This document shows positions 4,918 through 54,421 of a stretch of DNA of 64,000 nt, piece by piece; the stretch's first letter is position 1; the number at the start of each line of letters is the position of its first letter. The position numbers and the translations under genes are program-made. This DNA comes from Actinorugispora endophytica (GTDB lineage Bacteria; Actinomycetota; Actinomycetes; Streptosporangiales; Streptosporangiaceae). Where the stretch lies: assembly GCF_004363075.1 (NCBI RefSeq), contig NZ_SNYN01000017.1:1-64000 (forward strand). The letters run 5' to 3'. The notes under the pieces were generated by a model. The model worked only from the letters and a program-made list of their open reading frames with translations, was not told the origin of the DNA and ran no database searches.

Positions 4918-5385
4918 CTAGGGCAGCGGAGGGAGCTCGCCGGTGCGCTCGTAGGTCGAGAGCATGTCGATCCGGCGGCCGTGCCGCTCCTCGCCGCTGT
5001 AGGGCGTGGACAGGAAGACCTCGACGAAGCCGACGACCTCTTCGGGCGAGTGCATCCGGGCGCCGATGCCGATCACGTTGGCGTTGTTGTGCTCGCGGGA
5101 CAGCCGCGCCGTGTCGGTGCTCCAGGCCAGGGCCGCCCGTACGCCCTTGACCTTGTTCGCGGCGATCTGCTCGCCGTTGCCTGAGCCGCCCAGCACGATG
5201 CCGAGCGCTCCCGCGTCGCCGGCGACGCCCTCCGCCGCGCGGAGTACGAACGGGGGGTAGTCGTCGACCGCGTCGTAGACGGTCGGTCCGGCGTCGACGA
5301 CCTCGTGTCCCTGCTCCTTGAGCCAGGAGACGAGGTGCTCCTTCAGTTCGTAGCCGGCATGGTCGGATCCAATGTAAACACGCAC
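4918..5385 (-). CDS. rpiB: Ribose-5-phosphate isomerase B
   Basis: The 155-residue enzyme interconverts ribose 5-phosphate and ribulose 5-phosphate in the pentose phosphate pathway. The N-terminus shows the RpiB substrate motif GSDHAGYELK. The catalytic loop reads GGSGNGEQIAANK, with Glu where E. coli RpiB has a catalytic Cys region; this is the actinobacterial subtype, as in M. tuberculosis, where that Glu is the base. The GTG at 5385 gives the usual start (VRVYIGSDHAG); an ATG 21 bases upstream would add seven residues. Confidence 0.95.
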   Translation of the reverse strand: MRVYIGSDHAGYELKEHLVSWLKEQGHEVVDAGPTVYDAVDDYPPFVLRAAEGVAGDAGALGIVLGGSGNGEQIAANKVKGVRAALAWSTDTARLSREHNNANVIGIGARMHSPEEVVGFVEVFLSTPYSGEERHGRRIDMLSTYERTGELPPLP

Positions 5386-5428
5386 GCCCCCAGTCTGGCA
5401 GGTCACCGGGGGGAACGCGGCCCGGGCG

Positions 5429-5470
5429 CGCCGGCGCCCGGCGGCCGTGAGCGGCCGCCGGGCGCCGGCG
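5429..5470 (-). terminator. Perfect 19-bp hairpin
   Basis: Arms 5429-5447 and 5452-5470 pair perfectly around a 4-base loop (TGAG). It lies just downstream of the mini membrane protein gene and upstream of rpiB, and is likely a terminator isolating rpiB. Confidence 0.65.
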
Positions 5471-5488
5471 TGGTTCCGGTGTCCGGGG

Positions 5489-5632
5489 CTACGCCCCGAT
5501 CCCTGCCTGGAAGACCGCGATGCCGAGCACCCCGAAGAGGATCCCGGACACGATGGCGACGACGTTCACCAGGACGATGGCCTTGAGGTCCTTGCTCACG
5601 GGGCCGGCCTTGGACGCGGACGACTGACTCAA
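5489..5632 (-). CDS. Single-pass mini membrane protein (47 aa)
   Basis: A 47-residue frame starts at TTG with GAGGTGG six bases upstream. It has a polar N-terminus (SQSSASKAGPVSKDLKA) followed by one long hydrophobic segment (~18-41) and a short tail. An internal GTG (residue 12) is an alternative start. The strong ribosome binding site and the perfect hairpin just after the stop support a real gene. I do not recognise a family; small cytoplasmic-membrane peptides of this type are common next to housekeeping genes. Confidence 0.6.
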   Translation of the reverse strand: MSQSSASKAGPVSKDLKAIVLVNVVAIVSGILFGVLGIAVFQAGIGA

Positions 5633-5726
5633 CTCAAACCACCTCGGCGTGATCGGGCAACGTGCTCACCGGAGATTTTGTCATAGTCCGTCATGGTTCG
5701 GGATCGGGGACGGGTCGATCCGCGCC

Positions 5727-5897
5727 TCATCCCCAGTGCGGGGGGACCTCGCGCGCCAGCTCGTCGATCCGGGAGTCGCCGTCCCCGTCCCCGACCGGCT
5801 CGCCCCAGCCCGCGCCGCGCTCGTCCGCGGTGGTGTCGGGCAGGATGTCCAGGTCGTCGTCGAAGAAGACCGGGCGCTCCTCATCCGGTTCGCTCAT
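5727..5897 (-). CDS. Small acidic hypothetical protein (56 aa)
   Basis: A 56-residue, strongly acidic product (FFDDDLDILPDTT, GDGDGDSRIDELARE) starts at an ATG preceded by GGAAGGG. It lies 26 bases downstream of the Rv2466c-like gene on the same strand and is probably cotranscribed with it. No domain is recognised. The composition suggests a mostly disordered polypeptide with a short helix at the C-terminus. Confidence 0.6.
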   Translation of the reverse strand: MSEPDEERPVFFDDDLDILPDTTADERGAGWGEPVGDGDGDSRIDELAREVPPHWG

Positions 5898-5923
5898 GCT
5901 CGCCCTTCCGGTCGGGGATCGGT

Positions 5924-6523
5924 TCAGTCGAAGATCGGTTCGCGGGTGCGGCTGCGCTTGAGCTCGAAGAACCCGTCGGTCCCCGCGACCAGCAGGACGC
6001 CGTCCCACAACCGCCCCGCGGCCTCGCCCCGGGGCGCGGGGGACACGACCGGACCGAAGAACGAGACTCCCTCGACCGATACCACCGGGGTTCCCACCTC
6101 CTGGCCGACCCTGTCCATGCCGTCGTGGTGCGACTTGCGCAGGGCCTCATCGTAGTCAGTGCTCCCGGCCGCCTCGACGAGGTCCGCGGGCAGGCCCGCG
6201 TCGGCCAGGGCCGCGGCGATGGTCTCCACCGTGTAGGGCTCCGCGCGGTTGTGCAGGCGGGTGCCGAGCGCGGTGTAGAACGGGCCCAGCACCTCGTTGC
6301 CCAGGCGCTGCTCGGCCGCGATGGCCACGCGCACGCCCCGCCACCTCTCCTCCGGCTGCGCCTCCCTGCCCTCGTTCAGCACCGCCAGGCTCATGACGTG
6401 CCAACGCGCCCGCACCGGGCGGACCTTCTCCACCTCCAGAAGCCAGCGCGAGGCCATCCACGCCCACGGACACAGAGGGTCGAACCAGAGGTCAACGGTG
6501 GTTCTCTCATCGGTCAACGTCAT
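5924..6523 (-). CDS. DsbA-like oxidoreductase of the Rv2466c family
   Basis: The 199-residue protein has the thioredoxin/DsbA fold pattern with a helical insertion and starts [12 protein letters not shown]. It resembles Rv2466c of M. tuberculosis, a mycothiol-dependent reductase that can activate nitro-drugs. The active-site motif is C18-P-W-A, so the second (resolving) Cys of a CxxC pair is absent and a mechanism using one Cys plus a low-molecular-weight thiol is likely. The cis-Pro region is GTPVVSVEG. It has no signal peptide, so it is cytoplasmic. It is divergent from pepN. Confidence 0.85.
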
Positions 6524-47487: not shown

Positions 47488-49005
47488 TCAGGGGCCTCCC
47501 GGGGGGACGACGGGCATCCCGCCGGGGGCGCCGTCCTCCAGCAGCCTCAGCAGTGCCGCCGTGTCCATGTGCTCCTCGACGAGGTCGCCGAGGGCGTCCA
47601 GGCGCCGGCTCCGTTCGGCGGCGAAGTCGGTGTCGGGGGCGCAGGCGAAGTCGCGGCCCGCGCGAGCGGCCACCTCGCGTAGGAAGGCCCTCCGGAAGCC
47701 GTCGTTCTCCAGCGCCCCGTGCCAGGTGGTCCCCCACACCGCGCCCAGCCGGTGGCCGTCCAGGAAGGGCTCGGTGTCGGCGGACGGGTCGACGTGGACC
47801 ACCCCGTGGTGGATCTCGTAGGCGCGCACCGGGTTCCCGTACGCGGTTCCGACCGGCCGCCCCAGCGTCTTCTCCACGGCGAAGTCAACCCGGGTGGGCA
47901 GCAGCCCCAGGCCCTCCACCCGACCGGCCCGGGACTCCACCTCGTCGTCGATGCCGCGGGCCAGCATCTGGTAACCGCCGCAGATCCCCAGCAGCGGGAG
48001 ACCCCGCCCGGCCCTTTCCACCAGCGCGTCGGCCAGTCCGCGTTCGCGCAGCCAGGCCAGGTCCGCCACGGTGGCGCGGCTGCCCGGCAGGATCACCAGG
48101 TCCGCGTCCGCGACCTCGTGCGGCGCGGTGACGAAGCGCACGTCCACCCCGGGCTCGACGGTGAGCGCGTCGATGTCGGTGAAGTTGCTGATGCGCGGCA
48201 GCCGCACCACCGCCACCCGCAGGGTCTGCGACCCCAGCGGGGGACGCGACGGGCCGCGGTCCACGCTCAGCGCCAGCGAGTCCTCCACGTCCAGCCACAG
48301 CCCGTCCAGCCAGGGCAGCACCCCGTACACGTCCCGGCCGGTGAGCGAGCGGATCATGTCCAGGCCCGGTTCGAGGAGTTCGCGCGCGCCCCGGAACTTG
48401 TTGACCACGAACCCCGCGACCAGGGCCTGGTCGGCCGGCTCCAGCAGGGCCAGGGTGCCGTGCAGCGCGGCGAACACCCCGCCCCGGTCGATGTCGCCGA
48501 CCACCAGGACGGGCAGGTCCGCGGCTCGCGCCAGCCCCATGTTGGCGATGTCCCCGGCGCGCAGGTTGATCTCGGCGGGGCTGCCCGCACCCTCGCAGAG
48601 CACCACGTCGTGTGAGGCGCGCAGCTCGGCCAGCGCCTCCAGCGACACCTCGCGCAGGCGCTCCTTGTAGGACCGGTAGGTCAGTGCGTCGGCCTCGCCG
48701 ACGGGGCGGCCCCGCACGACGACCTGGCTGCTGCGGTCGCTCCCGGGCTTGAGCAGGACCGGGTTCATCGCGGCGGTCGGTTCGATCCCGCAGGCGGCGG
48801 CCTGCATGGCCTGGGCACGGCCGATCTCCGCGCCGTCGGGGGTGACCACCGAGTTCAGGGACATGTTCTGCGCCTTGAAGGGCGCGACCCTAACCCCTTG
48901 GCGGGCCAGCCAGCGGCACAGTCCCGCCGTGACCACGCTCTTGCCCGCGTCCGAGGTGGTCCCCGCCACGAGCAGCGCGGGCGCGGCGCCGCGTTCCGAG
49001 AGCAT
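47488..49005 (-). CDS. cobQ: Cobyric acid synthase
   Basis: A 505-residue ATP-dependent amidotransferase that amidates peripheral carboxylates of adenosylcobyrinic acid a,c-diamide. The synthetase half starts [19 protein letters not shown] (P-loop-like) with [13 protein letters not shown]; the glutaminase half has [11 protein letters not shown] (nucleophile Cys) and YEIHHGVV (His). Length is typical. Its ATG overlaps the TGA of the upstream cobD gene (TGATG), so the two are translationally coupled. A longer same-strand frame upstream is not coding. Confidence 0.95.
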
Positions 49006-49982
49006 CAGCGCGCCTCCCCGCTCACCGGGCGGAGACGTTCTGCCGTCGCCCAGGCCGCGGCCGCCGCGACGAGGGCGGCGCCCGCGTTGACGGCGCGGGC
49101 CAGGCGGACGGCGCGGCGGATGTCGCGGACCCGCGGAGCCCGGCCGTCGCCGAGTTCGGGACGGTGCTCGACCCGTCCGCCGTACACGTTGCGCCCGCCC
49201 AGGCGGATGTCCAGCGCGCCGGCGAACGCGGACTCGCACTGACCGGCGTTGGGGCTGGGGTGCCGGTCGCCGTAGCGGGCGCGGGCGCGCCAGGCCCGGC
49301 GCGGGTCTCCGCCGACGACCGGCGCGGCGGCCGCGACCAGCAGCGCGGTCAGCCGGGCCGGGGCCCAGTTGGCGACGTCGTCCAGGCGCGCGGCGGCCCA
49401 GCCGAACCGCTCGTAGCGCGCTGACCGGTGCCCGACCATGGCGTCCAGGGTGTTGACGGCGCGGTAGCCGAGCAGTCCGGCGGGTCCCAGCAGAGCGCCC
49501 CACAGCAGGGGGGCGACGACGGCGTCGGATGTGTTCTCGGCCACCGATTCGACGGTGGCGCGGGCCAGCGCGTCGGCGTCCAGCCCGCTGGGGTCGCGTC
49601 CGCACAGGTGCGGCAGCCTCCGCCGGGCCTCCGCCAGGTCCCCCGCCTCGAGCGCGTCGGCCATCGCCGCGGCCTCGCGTCCCAGCATGGCCCCGCCGAC
49701 GACGGCCCAGGTCGCCGTGGCCGTGACCGCGAAGGCCCGGCACCGGCCGGCGTCCGCGAGCGCGCCCGCCGCGGCGACCGGTGCCACGGCCAGGACCGCG
49801 AACGCCGCCCCGCGCGTCCGGCTCGGCGCGTACAGCCGCTCCTCCAGCCTCCCCGCGGCCGTCCCGAACACCGCGACGGGGTGTCCCCGTTCGGGGTCCG
49901 CGACCACCCGATCCATCAGGGCTCCGGCCAACAAGCCTGCCGCCCGGGGCCATCCCGCGGCCATTCGACGCTTCTTTCGCAC
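49005..49982 (-). CDS. cobD: Adenosylcobinamide-phosphate synthase (CobD/CbiB)
   Basis: A 325-residue membrane protein with several hydrophobic segments and the CbiB motifs [31 protein letters not shown] (16-base-signature region SVAENTSD), [15 protein letters not shown] and [10 protein letters not shown], plus [15 protein letters not shown]. It attaches the aminopropanol (phosphate) arm made by CobC to adenosylcobyric acid. The GTG at 49982 follows TAGGGT at leaderless spacing; an ATG six codons in is an alternative. Confidence 0.93.
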
Positions 49983-49988
49983 CCCACA

Positions 49989-49994
49989 ACCCTA
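49989..49994 (-). promoter_or_regulatory. Putative -10 of a leaderless cobD-cobQ transcript
   Basis: Minus-strand TAGGGT, six bases before the GTG at 49982. No cobalamin riboswitch is visible upstream. Confidence 0.35.
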
Positions 49995-50143
49995 GAGGCT
50001 GCGGAAAGTCCGTTTCCGCACCGACCAGGGAAAACGAATTGCGACTCTCGGTGGCCATATGAACACTTGGAGAAGTCGGCGCTCCCCCGCGCATTCCCTC
50101 TCATCTCATTCGCCCGCGAAGGGCCGTGAAGGGAGGGAAGGCC

Positions 50144-50203
50144 ATGAACGTCGTGTACATCGTTACGGTCCTCATTGTGTTCGGCCAGTATTGGAGCTGG
50201 TGA
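50144..50203 (+). CDS. 19-residue hydrophobic peptide ORF
   Basis: ATG is preceded by a very strong ribosome binding site (GGGAGGGAAGG). The 19-residue product is a short hydrophobic helix ending in aromatics (IVTVLIVFGQYWSW), then TGA. A perfect 15-bp hairpin starts 13 bases after the stop. A leader peptide coupled to the hairpin or a small membrane peptide are both possible; no aminoacid biosynthesis gene follows to support attenuation, and no antisense RNA is seen to support a type I toxin. No family is recognised. Confidence 0.45.
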   Translation: MNVVYIVTVLIVFGQYWSW

Positions 50204-50215
50204 AACGGCCGGCGA

Positions 50216-50255
50216 CGTCGCGCGGGAGGCACGACCGGGCGCCTCCCGCGCGACG
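50216..50255 (+). terminator. Perfect 15-bp hairpin after the peptide ORF
   Basis: CGTCGCGCGGGAGGC and its exact complement with a 10-base loop, followed by CGCCCGTCTTCG. It may end the short transcript carrying the peptide ORF. Confidence 0.65.
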
Positions 50256-50544
50256 CGCCCGTCTTCGCGAAACACCCGCGCCACGCGCCGCGTCGGTCGT
50301 CGGACAGAGGTAACGTGTTCGACGACGCCTTAGCAACCGGTTTGGTGGAGAGCGCGTGGTAACGAGACGCAACTACGCATCGCCGTAGTTGATACGATTT
50401 CGTCCGAACCTGGGCGTCCTCGGCGATATCCCCTAGAATGTCGCCTCGACTCCACCCTCCACGGTTCGGGGCCGCTCCACCATCGCGCCCCGAGATCCGC
50501 AGTGTCACCGGAATCCTCTCGGAACACGCCACAATTGAATCCGA
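50256..50544. other. Gap upstream of tRNA-Arg
   Basis: No gene is seen. It contains a perfect 8-bp inverted repeat CAACTACG/CGTAGTTG at 50370-50391 and a TAGAAT hexamer near 50433, which may be part of the tRNA promoter. Confidence 0.45.
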
Positions 50545-50617
50545 GCACCCGTAGCTCAGTGGATAGAGCACCGGACTTCTAATCCGATGGTCGCAGGTTC
50601 GAATCCTGCCGGGTGCG
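50545..50617 (+). tRNA. tRNA-Arg(TCT)
   Basis: A complete cloverleaf: acceptor GCACCCG/CGGGTGC, D-arm GCTC/GAGC, anticodon loop CTTCTAA giving anticodon TCT (reads AGA, also AGG by wobble), and T-arm GCAGG-TTCGAAT-CCTGC. One anticodon-stem end pair (27-43) is a C-A mismatch. CCA is not encoded. A terminator hairpin follows. AGA is very rare in genes of this base composition, so this is a minor tRNA. Confidence 0.95.
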
Positions 50618-51081
50618 CACTGGCCGAACAGCGAAAGGCGCCTTCCCGCCCGGGGCCGGGCGGGAAGGCGCCTCGTTCTGCCCGAGGCCGCGCTCGGGCC
50701 CGGCGGGGCAGGCGCGCGCCAGCACGCCCGGGGCGGATCTCCCGGCCGTCCCGGTGAACGTTCCCGGCCGGGACTCCCGATCACACCGGACCGCTGTTCC
50801 GGTCCCCGCCGGGCCGCCTTTTCGGACGGCTGCGATTCGGCGGCGCCCGGCACCCCGGAGCACCCGCGCCCGCGTGGCGGGGCCGTCCTCCGGGCCGGGG
50901 CCGGCCTCACCCCGCGCATCGCCGGATTGCGCCCGCCCGCTACCCACGATAAACATCGTTCACAGGGTAAAGACCCGAGTATGGCCGCTTCGCGATGATT
51001 GGTGCGTGAACACAGCAAATCCCGTCATTTCGGGTGAAGGAACCCAGCCCCGGCCCCAGCCGCACGTGAGGGAGGACACCT
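50618..51081. other. Gap after tRNA-Arg
   Basis: Apart from the terminator at 50636-50673 no gene is seen. The last ~120 bases before the roadblock gene are less GC-rich and should contain its promoter; I cannot fix the -10 or -35. Confidence 0.45.
50636..50673 (+). terminator. Perfect 18-bp hairpin after tRNA-Arg
   Basis: Arms 50636-50653 and 50656-50673 with a 2-base spacer, ~20 bases after the tRNA 3' end, then CGTTCT. It is a strong terminator candidate. Confidence 0.8.
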
Positions 51082-51795
51082 GTGCCTGAAACCCCCGTGG
51101 ACGCTGTCGGGGTGCTGGACCGGCTCGCCTCCGGGGTACCGGGGGTCGAGGCCATCGTGCTGGCGGACCGGAGCGGGCGGCCGCTGGCCTCGTCCACCGG
51201 GACCGCCGCCGGCGACGCCGACCGGCTGGCCGCCGTCGCCGGCGGTGTGTCGGGCCTGGCCGGAGCCGCCATGGCGCTGCTGAACACCGGTGTGCTCGAA
51301 CAGGCCGCCATCGACCTCGGGCACGGGCACCTGGTGGTGCACGCGCTCGGCGGAGGCCGCCGAATCGTCGCGCTGACCTCCCCGGACGGCGACCTCTCGG
51401 CCCTGGAGCGGGAGGTCCGGGACGCCTCCTCCGAGTTCTCCCTCGTCCAGCAGCCCCAACGGGCCGCCGGAGGCGGCGAGGAGGAGGCCGACCCGCTCGC
51501 GCAGGTGCACCGCCTGACGGAGCGGTTCCCCGGCTGGCGCATCCGCTACGAGGTCCCCGCCCCCGCTGCGGCCGGCGGATTCACCGCCGAACGCGACCAC
51601 AGTTCCGAGGACCTCTTCGTCCTGCTGGGCCTCCTGAACGCCGTCCACGCCCGCACCGGCGCGGAACTAGAGGCCAGGCTCGCGATCCAGGACGCCGTCT
51701 CGACGGGCCTGGACGCGATCACCTCGTTGAGCCCCGCCTCCTGGAACTCGATCGAACGCGGTCTGGCCGCGCTGCTGCGCGATCCCCGCTTCTGA
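51082..51795 (+). CDS. Roadblock/LC7 domain protein with extra C-terminal region
   Basis: A 237-residue protein. Residues ~6-115 have the roadblock pattern (LDRLASGVPGVEAIVLADRSGRPLASS, LAAVAGGVSGLAGAA, DLGHGHLVVHALGGGR). Residues ~125-237 are an added acidic/helical region with no family I recognise. Single roadblock domains (CvnB/MglB-like) regulate small GTPases in actinobacterial conservons; two conservon-type P450 genes follow, but no GTPase, DUF742 or kinase gene is present. GGGAGG precedes the GTG. A conservon relic or a stand-alone regulator are both possible. Confidence 0.75.
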   Translation: MPETPVDAVGVLDRLASGVPGVEAIVLADRSGRPLASSTGTAAGDADRLAAVAGGVSGLAGAAMALLNTGVLEQAAIDLGHGHLVVHALGGGRRIVALTSPDGDLSALEREVRDASSEFSLVQQPQRAAGGGEEEADPLAQVHRLTERFPGWRIRYEVPAPAAAGGFTAERDHSSEDLFVLLGLLNAVHARTGAELEARLAIQDAVSTGLDAITSLSPASWNSIERGLAALLRDPRF

Positions 51796-51962
51796 CCGGA
51801 CCTGACAGGTCCTGGCCGCATCCGGCCATGTCCAAGCACGCCTGACCACACCTGAGAGCGCGGTTCCCGACCGCCGGTTCTCCCTTCTCCTCCCGCGCCG
51901 CGCGGCGGCTTCGCCATGCCCGAAAACGGCGGGCGACGCTCCCCCATTTCTCTCCGACCCCT

Positions 51963-53342
51963 GTGGACACGACCCCGATGACACCCCCTGATCCCGCACG
52001 TCCGCCCGTCCGGCTGTACGAGGCCGCCGACCCCGCCCTGCTGTGGCCCGCGCTGCTGGCCGACCACGGCCAGATCGCGCCGGTGGAGATCGAACCCGGC
52101 GCGCACGGCTGGCTCGTGCTGTCCTGGAACCTGAACCGGCGAGTGCTGACCGACACCCGCGCCTTCGCCCGCGACCCGGCGTGGTGGCGCGAACTGCACG
52201 ACGGCACCATCGGCCCCGCCTCGGGCCTGCGCGCCCTGTACGGCAAGCGGCAGTCCGCGCTGTTCTGCGACGGGGCCGAGCACCAGCGCTACCGCGACGC
52301 CCTCGTGGCCGCGCTCGGCCGGTTGACCAGGCAGCAGGCGGTCCGGCACATCGACGAGGCCGCCAACCGGCTGATCGACGCGTTCTGCCTGCACGGCAAG
52401 GCCGACCTGATCGCCCAGTACGCCCGCCAGCTCCCGTTGACCGTGCTGTGCCGCCTGTTCGGTCTGGCCCCCGACGAGACCGTCCGGGTCTGCGCGGCCA
52501 TGCAGACGCTGTGGGAGGCCGGGCCCGACGCCCCCGCCGCCAAGACGCGGATCGAGGCGCTGCTGGACGGCCTCGCCCGCAGACGCCGCGCCGCTCCCGG
52601 CGACGACCTGGCGTCCGGCCTCGTCTCCGAGGGCATGACCGACGACGAGGTCCGCGACCAGCTCACCCTGGTCATCGCCGCGGGCGACGACCCCGTCACG
52701 CACCTGATCGGCAACACCCTGCGGATGCTGCTCACCGCTCCGGGGCTGCGCGCCTCCGTGGCGGGCTCGCGGACTCTGATCGCCGAGACCATCAACGCCT
52801 CCCTGTGGGCCGACCCGCCGGTCCAGGCCCTCATCGGCCGCTACCCCACCGCCGACGTGGAGCTGGGCGGGGCCCGGGTGCGCAGGGGCGACTGCCTGGT
52901 CATCGGCTACGCCGCCGCGCACCTGGACCTGATGGCCCGCACCGACCCCGCCGTCGCCCAGGCCAACCGCGCCCACCTGACCTGGGGCGCGGGACCGCAC
53001 ACCTGCCCCCAGATCGGGCGGTCCCTCACCCTGGCCATCGCCGAGACCGCCGTCGAGCAGCTCATGCACCGCCTGCCCGACCTGCGCCTGGCCGTGGACG
53101 CCGGCCTGCTGCGTCGGCGCCCCTCCCTGTCGGTGCACGCCCTCACCGACCTTCCGGTGAGCTTCACCCCCGCCGCCCCCTCACGCATGGACCGAGGAGA
53201 CTCGATATGGAACCGCCCCGCCCTCGCACCGTCCGGCTCGACCCCGCCTCGGGGATCGACATCCACGCCCGGGCGCGCGAGCTCCGGGAGAAGGGGCCCG
53301 TGGTACGGGTGGCTTTTCCCGGCCTGGAGGTCTGGGCGGTGA
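51963..53342 (+). CDS. CYP157-like cytochrome P450 lacking the ExxR motif
   Basis: A 459-residue P450. The heme ligand Cys348 is in WGAGPHTCPQIGR, and the I-helix oxygen motif reads AGDDPVT (240-246). The K-helix site reads ETINASLW (275-282), so the Arg of ExxR is missing, as in the CYP157 family of Streptomyces conservons, which are the known P450s with that loss. The fold should end near residue 405, but the frame runs on for ~55 residues, overlapping the next P450 gene by 136 bases. The start is GTG; ATG five codons in is an alternative. Confidence 0.85.
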   Translation: MDTTPMTPPDPARPPVRLYEAADPALLWPALLADHGQIAPVEIEPGAHGWLVLSWNLNRRVLTDTRAFARDPAWWRELHDGTIGPASGLRALYGKRQSALFCDGAEHQRYRDALVAALGRLTRQQAVRHIDEAANRLIDAFCLHGKADLIAQYARQLPLTVLCRLFGLAPDETVRVCAAMQTLWEAGPDAPAAKTRIEALLDGLARRRRAAPGDDLASGLVSEGMTDDEVRDQLTLVIAAGDDPVTHLIGNTLRMLLTAPGLRASVAGSRTLIAETINASLWADPPVQALIGRYPTADVELGGARVRRGDCLVIGYAAAHLDLMARTDPAVAQANRAHLTWGAGPHTCPQIGRSLTLAIAETAVEQLMHRLPDLRLAVDAGLLRRRPSLSVHALTDLPVSFTPAAPSRMDRGDSIWNRPALAPSGSTPPRGSTSTPGRASSGRRGPWYGWLFPAWRSGR

Positions 53343-54421
53343 CCCACGACGCCGAGCTGCGCGCGGCGATGGCCGACGAGGCCACGTTCGTACGCGGCTG
53401 GCGCAACTGGCGCGCCCTGGCGGCGGGGGAGATCGACGCCGCGCACCCGGTCGCGGCCATGATGCGCGTCGAGTCGATGATCGCCCGCTCGGGGGACGAC
53501 CACAGGCGTCTGCGCGGCCTGGTCCAGGCCGGGTTCACCCGCCGCCGCGTGGAGGCCCTGCGCCCCCGTGTCGAGGCGCTCACCACCAGCCTCCTGCACC
53601 GGATGGCGCGCCGCGGCGGGGTGGTCGACCTGAAGGCCGCGTTCGCGTTCCCACTGCCCATGATGGTCATCAGCGACCTGCTCGGCCTCGACCCGGCCGA
53701 CCAGGAATCCCTGTCCTCCCTGGTCACCCGCATCCTGTCGGGGACCGACCCGACCGCCAACACCGACGCGTTCGCGTTCGCCGTCCGGATGGTCCGCGCC
53801 AAGCGCGCCGCCGGCGACGACGCGCTGATCAGCGCCCTCATCGACGCGCGCGACGGCGACGGCGACGCCCTCACCGAGGAGGAACTCGTCTGGAGTGTCC
53901 TGCTGCTCGTCGTCGGAGGGTTCGAGACCACCGTGGGGATGATCGGCAACTCGGTGAAACTGCTGCTCAACCATCCCGAGCAGCTCGCCCTGCTGCGCGG
54001 CGGCAGGGTGTCGTGGGAGCAGGCCGTCGAGGAGTGCCTGCGCTTCGACCCCTCGGTGGCGATGCTGCCGTTCCTGTACACCACCCGCGACGTGGAGATG
54101 GGCGGCGTCACCATCCCGAAGGGGGAGGCGGTCCTGATGTGCTACGCGGCCGCCAACCGCGATCCGGCCGCGCACGCCGTACCCGACCGCTTCGACACCA
54201 CCCGCGGCGGGAACCGCCACATGGCCTTCGGCCACGCCGCCCACCTGTGCCTGGGCGCGCCACTGGCCCGCCTGGAACTGGCGGTCGCTCTGCCCGCCCT
54301 GTTCCGGAGGTTCCCGGACATCGCCCTGGCCGCCCCGACCGAACCGATGCCGTCGGTCTTCATGAACCATCCGCAGAGCATCCCCGTCCGCCTGTTCGGG
54401 AGCGGCGGACCGGCCGGCTGA
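53207..54421 (+). CDS. CYP154-like cytochrome P450
   Basis: A 404-residue P450 with all canonical motifs: I-helix GGFETT (237-242), K-helix ECLR (ExxR, 276-279) and heme loop FGHAAHLCLG with Cys348. The stretch GDDHRRLRGLVQAGFTRRRVEALRPRVE is typical of CYP154 proteins, the usual partner of CYP157 in conservons. CYP154 enzymes hydroxylate steroids and other small molecules in vitro; the natural substrate is unknown. GAGGAG precedes the ATG, which lies inside the 3' end of the upstream P450 gene. No ferredoxin gene is adjacent. Confidence 0.9.
   Translation: MEPPRPRTVRLDPASGIDIHARARELREKGPVVRVAFPGLEVWAVTHDAELRAAMADEATFVRGWRNWRALAAGEIDAAHPVAAMMRVESMIARSGDDHRRLRGLVQAGFTRRRVEALRPRVEALTTSLLHRMARRGGVVDLKAAFAFPLPMMVISDLLGLDPADQESLSSLVTRILSGTDPTANTDAFAFAVRMVRAKRAAGDDALISALIDARDGDGDALTEEELVWSVLLLVVGGFETTVGMIGNSVKLLLNHPEQLALLRGGRVSWEQAVEECLRFDPSVAMLPFLYTTRDVEMGGVTIPKGEAVLMCYAAANRDPAAHAVPDRFDTTRGGNRHMAFGHAAHLCLGAPLARLELAVALPALFRRFPDIALAAPTEPMPSVFMNHPQSIPVRLFGSGGPAG

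Follow-up and report, generated by a model that had tools for sequence, protein, structure and literature searches.

A roadblock-D fusion protein encoded beside a CYP157-type/CYP154-type P450 pair in Actinorugispora endophytica

The stretch of Actinorugispora endophytica DNA analysed here (the window; 64,000 nucleotides, positions 1 to 64,000 of contig NZ_SNYN01000017.1) encodes a roadblock protein followed by two cytochrome P450-like proteins, and a first-pass annotation of the sequence described these three genes as a partial conservon. The question raised by the locus is whether the roadblock protein belongs with the two P450s, and if so through which of its parts. The recurring companion of such P450 pairs is a domain of about 95 residues, named D in this analysis, which forms the C-terminal part of the roadblock protein; the roadblock is a local addition, found so far only here. 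The features of the locus are as follows.

51082..51795, +: gene 1, roadblock-D fusion protein, 237 amino acids, GTG start (Pfam match, structure model, D profile)
51103..51441, +: Roadblock/LC7 domain (CvnB/MglB-type) of gene 1, divergent, residues about 8-120 (Pfam, model, Foldseek)
51499..51792, +: D domain of gene 1, residues about 140-237 (D profile, structure model)
51963..53342, +: gene 2 (P0002), CYP157-type P450-like protein with a C-terminal tail of about 58 amino acids (alignment, structure-database matches)
52689..52694, +: I-helix acid-alcohol pair of P0002, Asp-Pro in place of Glu/Asp-Thr (alignment columns, codons)
52797..52808, +: K-helix ExxR site of P0002, ASLW (alignment columns, codons)
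53004..53006, +: heme-ligand Cys codon of P0002, in GPHTCPQ (alignment column, codon)
53207..54421, +: gene 3 (P0003), CYP154-type P450 with canonical motifs (Pfam, alignment, identity)
53207..53342, +: 136-base overlap, in different frames, of the P0002 C-terminal tail and the P0003 N-terminus

D was spotted upstream of CYP157-type genes in genome G030, which encodes four proteins of about 194-246 residues with two D copies each. With a D model built from these eight copies, the window being left out, gene 1 was the sole match at E<=1 among 803 window frames (E 7e-14). When gene 1 was aligned to the tandem D-D proteins, the roadblock occupied the place of the first D. Modelled alone, as the first-pass annotation had suggested, the C-terminal region is predicted to fold with a mean predicted local distance difference test score (pLDDT) of 91.9, in the order helix-strand-strand-helix-strand-helix-helix. 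The same annotation had called this extension of about 110 residues unfamiliar. That holds for the family databases: no Pfam model matches the window D, the best match among nine D members being one at E 0.12, and 36 D members searched against NCBIfam gave just two single-member matches (E 0.075 and 0.099). It does not hold for other genomes, where D recurs as D-D before such pairs. Foldseek returned nothing at E<=0.001 with the D model, and the best VIA-align score, Z 6.2 to ribosome hibernation factors and double-stranded RNA-binding domain-like chains, lies within the background range, so no function was read from the fold. The C-terminal part of gene 1 had no match in the plasmid collection searched.

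The D profile surveys, made with alignments that included the window row, covered 150 genomes of the family, six of the genus of G030 (g31), 394 of the class and 341 of the family; in the class and 341-genome searches the best 12 and best 14 candidates per genome, respectively, were scored, and weak members may be missed. At E<=1e-8, D was found in 5/341 family genomes, at nine loci among the candidates scored: four in G030, two in G146, and one each in G513, the window and G537. A CYP157-type/CYP154-type pair adjoins eight of these nine loci. Wherever D is adjacent to a pair (nine neighbourhoods, with the weaker G106 locus included), it is the immediate upstream neighbour of a CYP157-type gene and shares its strand. 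The D search alone brought up both G146 loci and those of G513 and G106, whose genomes lie outside the P450 search described below. Relaxing the limit to E<=1e-6 added three loci, one with a pair adjacent (G106, L147) and two with none (G030:4303427, L145; G138). The class sample gave D matches in 3/394 genomes. At E<=0.001, 34/150 family genomes had a match; most of these relatives are small proteins that share a W-x-I ... A-T-R pattern, and a P450 pair was present in three of the 16 neighbourhoods examined from this list (L143, L144 and L147). Among the small proteins are those of L118, L121, L128, L131 and others (about 75-130 amino acids, W-x-I-W/R ... W-A-T-R); L118, the sole member of this set scanned, has no Pfam match. 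In L144, D lies between two P450 pairs, in an array with two CYP157-type genes; the CYP154-type gene of one of these pairs (5281-6461) is read in two frames and is possibly broken. The G537 copy of D forms the C-terminus of a HATPase_c_2 protein (L261:7430-8236), and therefore D is also joined to other signalling domains.

The tandem D-D, CYP157-type and CYP154-type triads of g31 (L095-L098, L143, L144, L177) share with the window the D domain, the gene order, the strand and the clade of the pair. They differ in carrying a first D where the window has the roadblock. Their CYP157-type proteins are 44-49% identical to P0002, and their CYP154-type proteins at most 48% identical to P0003 (41-42% for the G030 copies).

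P0002 has no Pfam match at E 0.01 but resembles 381 distinct PDB sequences at E<=0.001. The first-pass annotation had stated that the first P450 lacks the ExxR Arg, as CYP157 proteins do. This was confirmed and can be refined: the K-helix reads TINASLW, with A and W at the aligned ExxR columns, so that both Glu and Arg are lost, and the I-helix pair is D-P. The heme Cys is kept. Against the P450-derived glycosyltransferase activator model TIGR04515, P0002 scored 99.7 bits, below the cut-off of 343. Published CYP157 K-helix motifs include EVLW, EQILW and EQSLW (PMC3599690). Aligned on its W, EQSLW also has Gln at the Glu position, and in our reading loss of the Glu alone would not exclude CYP157. 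P0002 lacks the ExxR Arg and keeps the heme Cys as CYP157 proteins do, and it is not linked to a conservon. Its identity to the 29 CYP157-type proteins associated with conservons, a comparison set without a named CYP157, reaches 39.7% at most, and the term CYP157-type is therefore used descriptively. P0003 has a Pfam P450 match of 84.4 bits and canonical motifs (ECLR, the ET pair and CLG). It is 43.8% identical to CYP154A1 (1odo; 169/386 aligned residues), which exceeds the 40% identity rule for P450 families (PMC3599690) and places it in CYP154, as the annotation had proposed from its appearance.

For comparison, P450s were searched in 69 genomes (one or two per genus), and neighbourhoods were taken for the matches with E up to about 1.6e-19, apart from G020:C245, which lies at the end of its contig. 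The alignment comprised 120 frames from all the neighbourhoods examined, after 3/123 with under 250 matched residues were dropped. Rows were sorted on the Arg column, and those without Arg at the ExxR column are called CYP157-type. The 81 CYP157-type rows have W at the Arg column in 76 cases and Cys in all 81; at the catalytic Thr position 64 have Pro and six have Thr, leaving 75/81 without it. Glu, Thr and Cys are kept in 39/39 Arg-bearing rows.

Judged by eye, the C-terminus of most CYP157-type proteins outside full conservons consists of a linker rich in P/S/T and a short segment rich in W/L/R, in total about 40-100 amino acids. Long tails were seen in L094, L093, L097, L104, L143, L177, L182 and others, also where no CYP154 gene follows; in pairs, the tail is encoded out of frame across the start of the CYP154 gene. 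In a 21-row conservon clade, 19 proteins stop 8-20 residues past the domain, and long tails occur in some conservon rows as well (L212, L213, L214, L218, L230). A membrane-helix reading of the tail was considered. Twenty-four tails chosen by eye gave a combined amphipathicity p of 2e-5 against shuffles; since the window tail is not amphipathic (p 0.71) and the rows are related, the idea is kept as a remark only.

According to the usual definition a conservon has cvnA, cvnB, cvnC and cvnD in synteny, and the window locus does not. Models of CvnA, CvnC and CvnD, searched in six frames over the whole 64 kb, gave no match at their respective limits of E 1e-8, 1e-3 and 1e-6; only CvnB matched (51112-51420). 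The absence of kinase, DUF742 protein and GTPase that the first-pass annotation had noted was borne out. P450s are known conservon accessories, termed CvnE (PMC13343842, PMC8510531). The organism has a complete cvnABCD-CYP157-CYP154 conservon on contig C5 (L051), whose P450s are 36.5% identical to P0002 and 41.8% to P0003. That system and the window have in common a CvnB-type roadblock and a CYP157-like/CYP154-like pair on one strand. The window differs in its missing CvnA, CvnC and CvnD, in a roadblock that is degenerate and fused to D, and in the position of P0002 in the CYP157-type tree. This tree (81 rows, quick method, midpoint root) carried Shimodaira-Hasegawa-like approximate likelihood ratio test (SH-aLRT) support only. 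In it a starred branch separates 29 full-conservon rows and nine others from 43 rows that include the window, and no row on the window's side has a full conservon on its strand. L192 was scored as lacking a conservon (no Cvn match), yet it is placed in the conservon clade; beside the second pair of L189 a conservon lies on the opposite strand, next to another CYP157-type gene. The K-helix column has Glu or Asp in 28/29 full-conservon rows versus 2/52 others, and because the rows are related this is a marker, not a test. The label of partial conservon was accurate for the parts present and the cvn genes absent; a reduced conservon built round the roadblock does not agree with a pair from the part of the tree free of full conservons.

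In the CYP157-type tree, the window and eight of the nine D-associated rows lie within one starred 15-row clade, and a starred 12-row clade of the CYP154-type tree includes the window and all eight D rows. D changes state four times on the former tree and twice on the latter, counts that fit loss or gain of D. The nearest relatives of P0002 are in L093 (59.2%), which has no adjacent CYP154 gene, and L094 (58.7%), from G040. The L094 pair is the closest by sequence, with a CYP154-type protein 66.8% identical to P0003 and an out-of-frame overlap and tail similar to those of the window pair. In contrast to the window, it has no gene 1 homologue in 16 kb. Its CYP154-type protein, which we take to be CYP154E1 of Thermobifida fusca, contains 393 residues of PDB 8RTV (chain length 395). 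We found no open-licence paper on 8RTV, which may have been described in print elsewhere. The protein has Val at residue 286, in agreement with PMC4077532, where geraniol and nerol are given as substrates of CYP154E1.

The roadblock half of gene 1 is real, as the first-pass annotation had held. Robl_LC7 of Pfam matches residues 12-90 with 36 bits against a cut-off of 23, and in the AlphaFold model residues 11-120 reach pLDDT values of 85-97 as block means. The best Foldseek matches of this model were a Streptomyces roadblock (E 1.4e-6) and MglB, and the roadblock matches include entries titled homodimer. Roadblock rows alone went into the full-length model, in which the D half has low confidence. 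The nearest solved sequences are Rv3364c and cvnB5. In fold and profile score gene 1 is consistent with a CvnB/MglB roadblock, with the same alpha-beta order. It differs from MglB and CvnB proteins in its C-terminal D and in the loss of conserved W, D, L and R positions; W, D and R positions invariant in 48 reference CvnB proteins are absent. It retains 13 of 29 columns conserved in at least 80% of these CvnB, which themselves retain 22-29, the columns having been picked on the same 48 proteins. It also scores lowest of the genome's 11 roadblocks (38.1 bits versus 77.3-93.2). The roadblock is therefore degenerate in sequence but good in its predicted fold.

Conservation of the roadblock beside such pairs was poor. 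A same-strand CvnB within 5.5 kb was found for just 2/52 rows without a full conservon, the window and L055, which does not fit the proposal that the roadblock is the centre of the module. When the whole of gene 1 served as query (150 genomes of the family, 394 of the class and a genome-contig scan, the best 18 and best 7 candidates per genome being scored in two of these searches), only CvnB-level matches turned up outside its own genome, so the roadblock was set aside as a conserved partner, and no second roadblock-D fusion was found in the genomes searched. The first-pass annotation had named conservation of the roadblock gene beside the P450s in related genomes as a point on which its idea would stand or fall; the roadblock half is not conserved there, and the D half recurs. 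We found no open-licence paper that treats a roadblock together with CYP157, and such an account may be in print elsewhere.

We consider it about evenly balanced that the locus is a three-gene P450-pair module of a conservon-free lineage, in which gene 1 is a two-part adaptor whose D pairs with the P450s and whose roadblock replaces the first D. P0002 would be a heme-binding sensor or activating partner, since the ExxR motif and the catalytic Thr are lost and the heme Cys is kept, and P0003 would be the actual oxygenase. D would dock onto the P450 pair. MglB-type roadblocks generally self-dimerise, and two D per particle would for that reason be the simplest common denominator of the D-D and roadblock-D proteins: the double D may be covalent in the former and arise by roadblock homodimerisation in the latter, with two D presented either way. 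A double D might hold two P450 pairs together, or position the partner on the enzyme.

Several observations weigh against the module as proposed. The examined stretches of L094 and L093 have no D, no roadblock and no conservon component, and 6/15 rows of the D-containing CYP157-type clade lack D, indicating that D need not accompany such a pair. The strong D-D loci all belong to a single genus, g31 (G030 four, G146 two, G513), so the eight D-pair loci represent few independent events, and at 1e-6 D is missing from 2/6 of its genomes. The G537 D locus has no P450 match within 17 kb, and the weak D relatives are mostly small proteins not adjoining P450s. Finally, gene 1 is separated from P0002 by the 167 bases that the first-pass annotation had reported, a gap across which gene 1 may or may not be co-transcribed with the pair, and no promoter- or terminator-like site was found within it.

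The surroundings of the three genes bear on how they came together. A tRNA-Arg(TCT) gene (50545-50618) lies 463 bases upstream of gene 1, preceded by an open reading frame (ORF) of 868 amino acids for cobyric acid synthase (47488-50094), in which the CobQ match starts at residue 373 and the N-terminal 370 residues have no listed family match. A minus-strand ORF at 50101-51018 was taken as spurious because it has no family match and overlaps the tRNA gene. Downstream, the opposite strand carries genes for a double TetR protein and for a fused spermidine synthase. The interval between tRNA-Arg and spermidine synthase spans 2.5 kb in G085 and G110 and contains other genes (by eye kinase-like and response-regulator-like), and nothing in it matches the roadblock or P450 proteins. 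A TetR pair comes after the spermidine synthase gene in G053, so the window TetR gene probably goes with the spermidine synthase side and not with the module. Integration of a mobile element at the tRNA was considered and dropped, the tRNA 3' end being single-copy in the window; integrases were not searched for. The stretch is a variable interval, and nothing more is claimed for it.

Three other explanations were weighed. The locus could be a reduced or distributed conservon, in which the roadblock descends from CvnB and still regulates a GTPase, CvnD is supplied from other conservons, D is a mere extra and the pair remains tied to small-GTPase signalling. The roadblock fold, its nearness to Rv3364c and cvnB5, and the role of P450s as CvnE (PMC13343842) fit this account, as do ten other roadblock loci in the genome, a CvnD match having been found in 8/9 regions examined round them. 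At L054, on contig C2 of this genome, about 4.6 kb separate two CvnB genes that closely resemble each other; the interval contains an Lsr2-like ORF and a DDE_3 transposase-like ORF (weak match), and GTPase-like and flavin monooxygenase-like genes follow one of the two CvnB genes. L055, from another genome, would be a precedent, with CYP157-type, CYP154-type, CvnB and CvnC-like genes and no CvnA or CvnD match in 20 kb. L055 and L100 share the order helix-turn-helix (HTH) gene, CYP157-type, CYP154-type, (CvnB in L055), CvnC-like and styrene-monooxygenase-like flavoprotein, with no CvnA or CvnD match in L100 either, and represent another cut-down arrangement. However, the rarity of a roadblock beside non-conservon pairs, the low score of gene 1 with its lost invariant W, D and R, and the place of P0002 away from full-conservon rows make this account unlikely.

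D might instead be a small regulator acting on transcription factors and not on P450s, controlling the P450 operon in g31 through an upstream XRE-type HTH protein. HTH_31 genes do lie upstream of D-D in L143 and L177 and of the L055 pair, with similar genes seen by eye in L096 and L100, and D is related to the broad set of small W-x-I-x...ATR proteins, which are often found near XRE regulators. In the window, however, no XRE gene was recognised among the scanned neighbours (tRNA-Arg upstream, the TetR pair downstream), and the D model has no convincing match to a DNA-binding fold at its background-range Z; we regard this explanation as distinctly improbable. Least of all do we expect gene 1 to be an independent gene that happens to precede the pair at a variable tRNA-Arg site. 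The 167-base gap, the differing contents of the interval in G085 and G110, and the absence of gene 1 from the closest pairs agree with chance, but D-D stands at the same position and strand before such pairs at seven other strong loci in three genomes, and a weaker single D precedes a pair in a fourth.

Returning to the adaptor reading, a wider proposal may be made tentatively, although we think it somewhat unlikely as a whole: D would serve as adaptor subunit in a class of P450-pair complexes not described so far, which would combine a CYP157-type pseudo-P450 and an active CYP154-type enzyme with a two-fold scaffold of D. In such complexes a self-pairing roadblock could take the place of one tandem domain, as in the window, and it may also connect the complex to small-GTPase signalling. 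The survey suggests that many CYP157-type proteins occur outside full conservons (52/81 rows), mostly with another K-helix letter and a longer C-terminal tail. Together with the D-D loci, the window offers a small three-gene system without kinase or GTPase for a direct test of the partner of such pairs, and the fusion predicts which half of gene 1 would contact the P450s.

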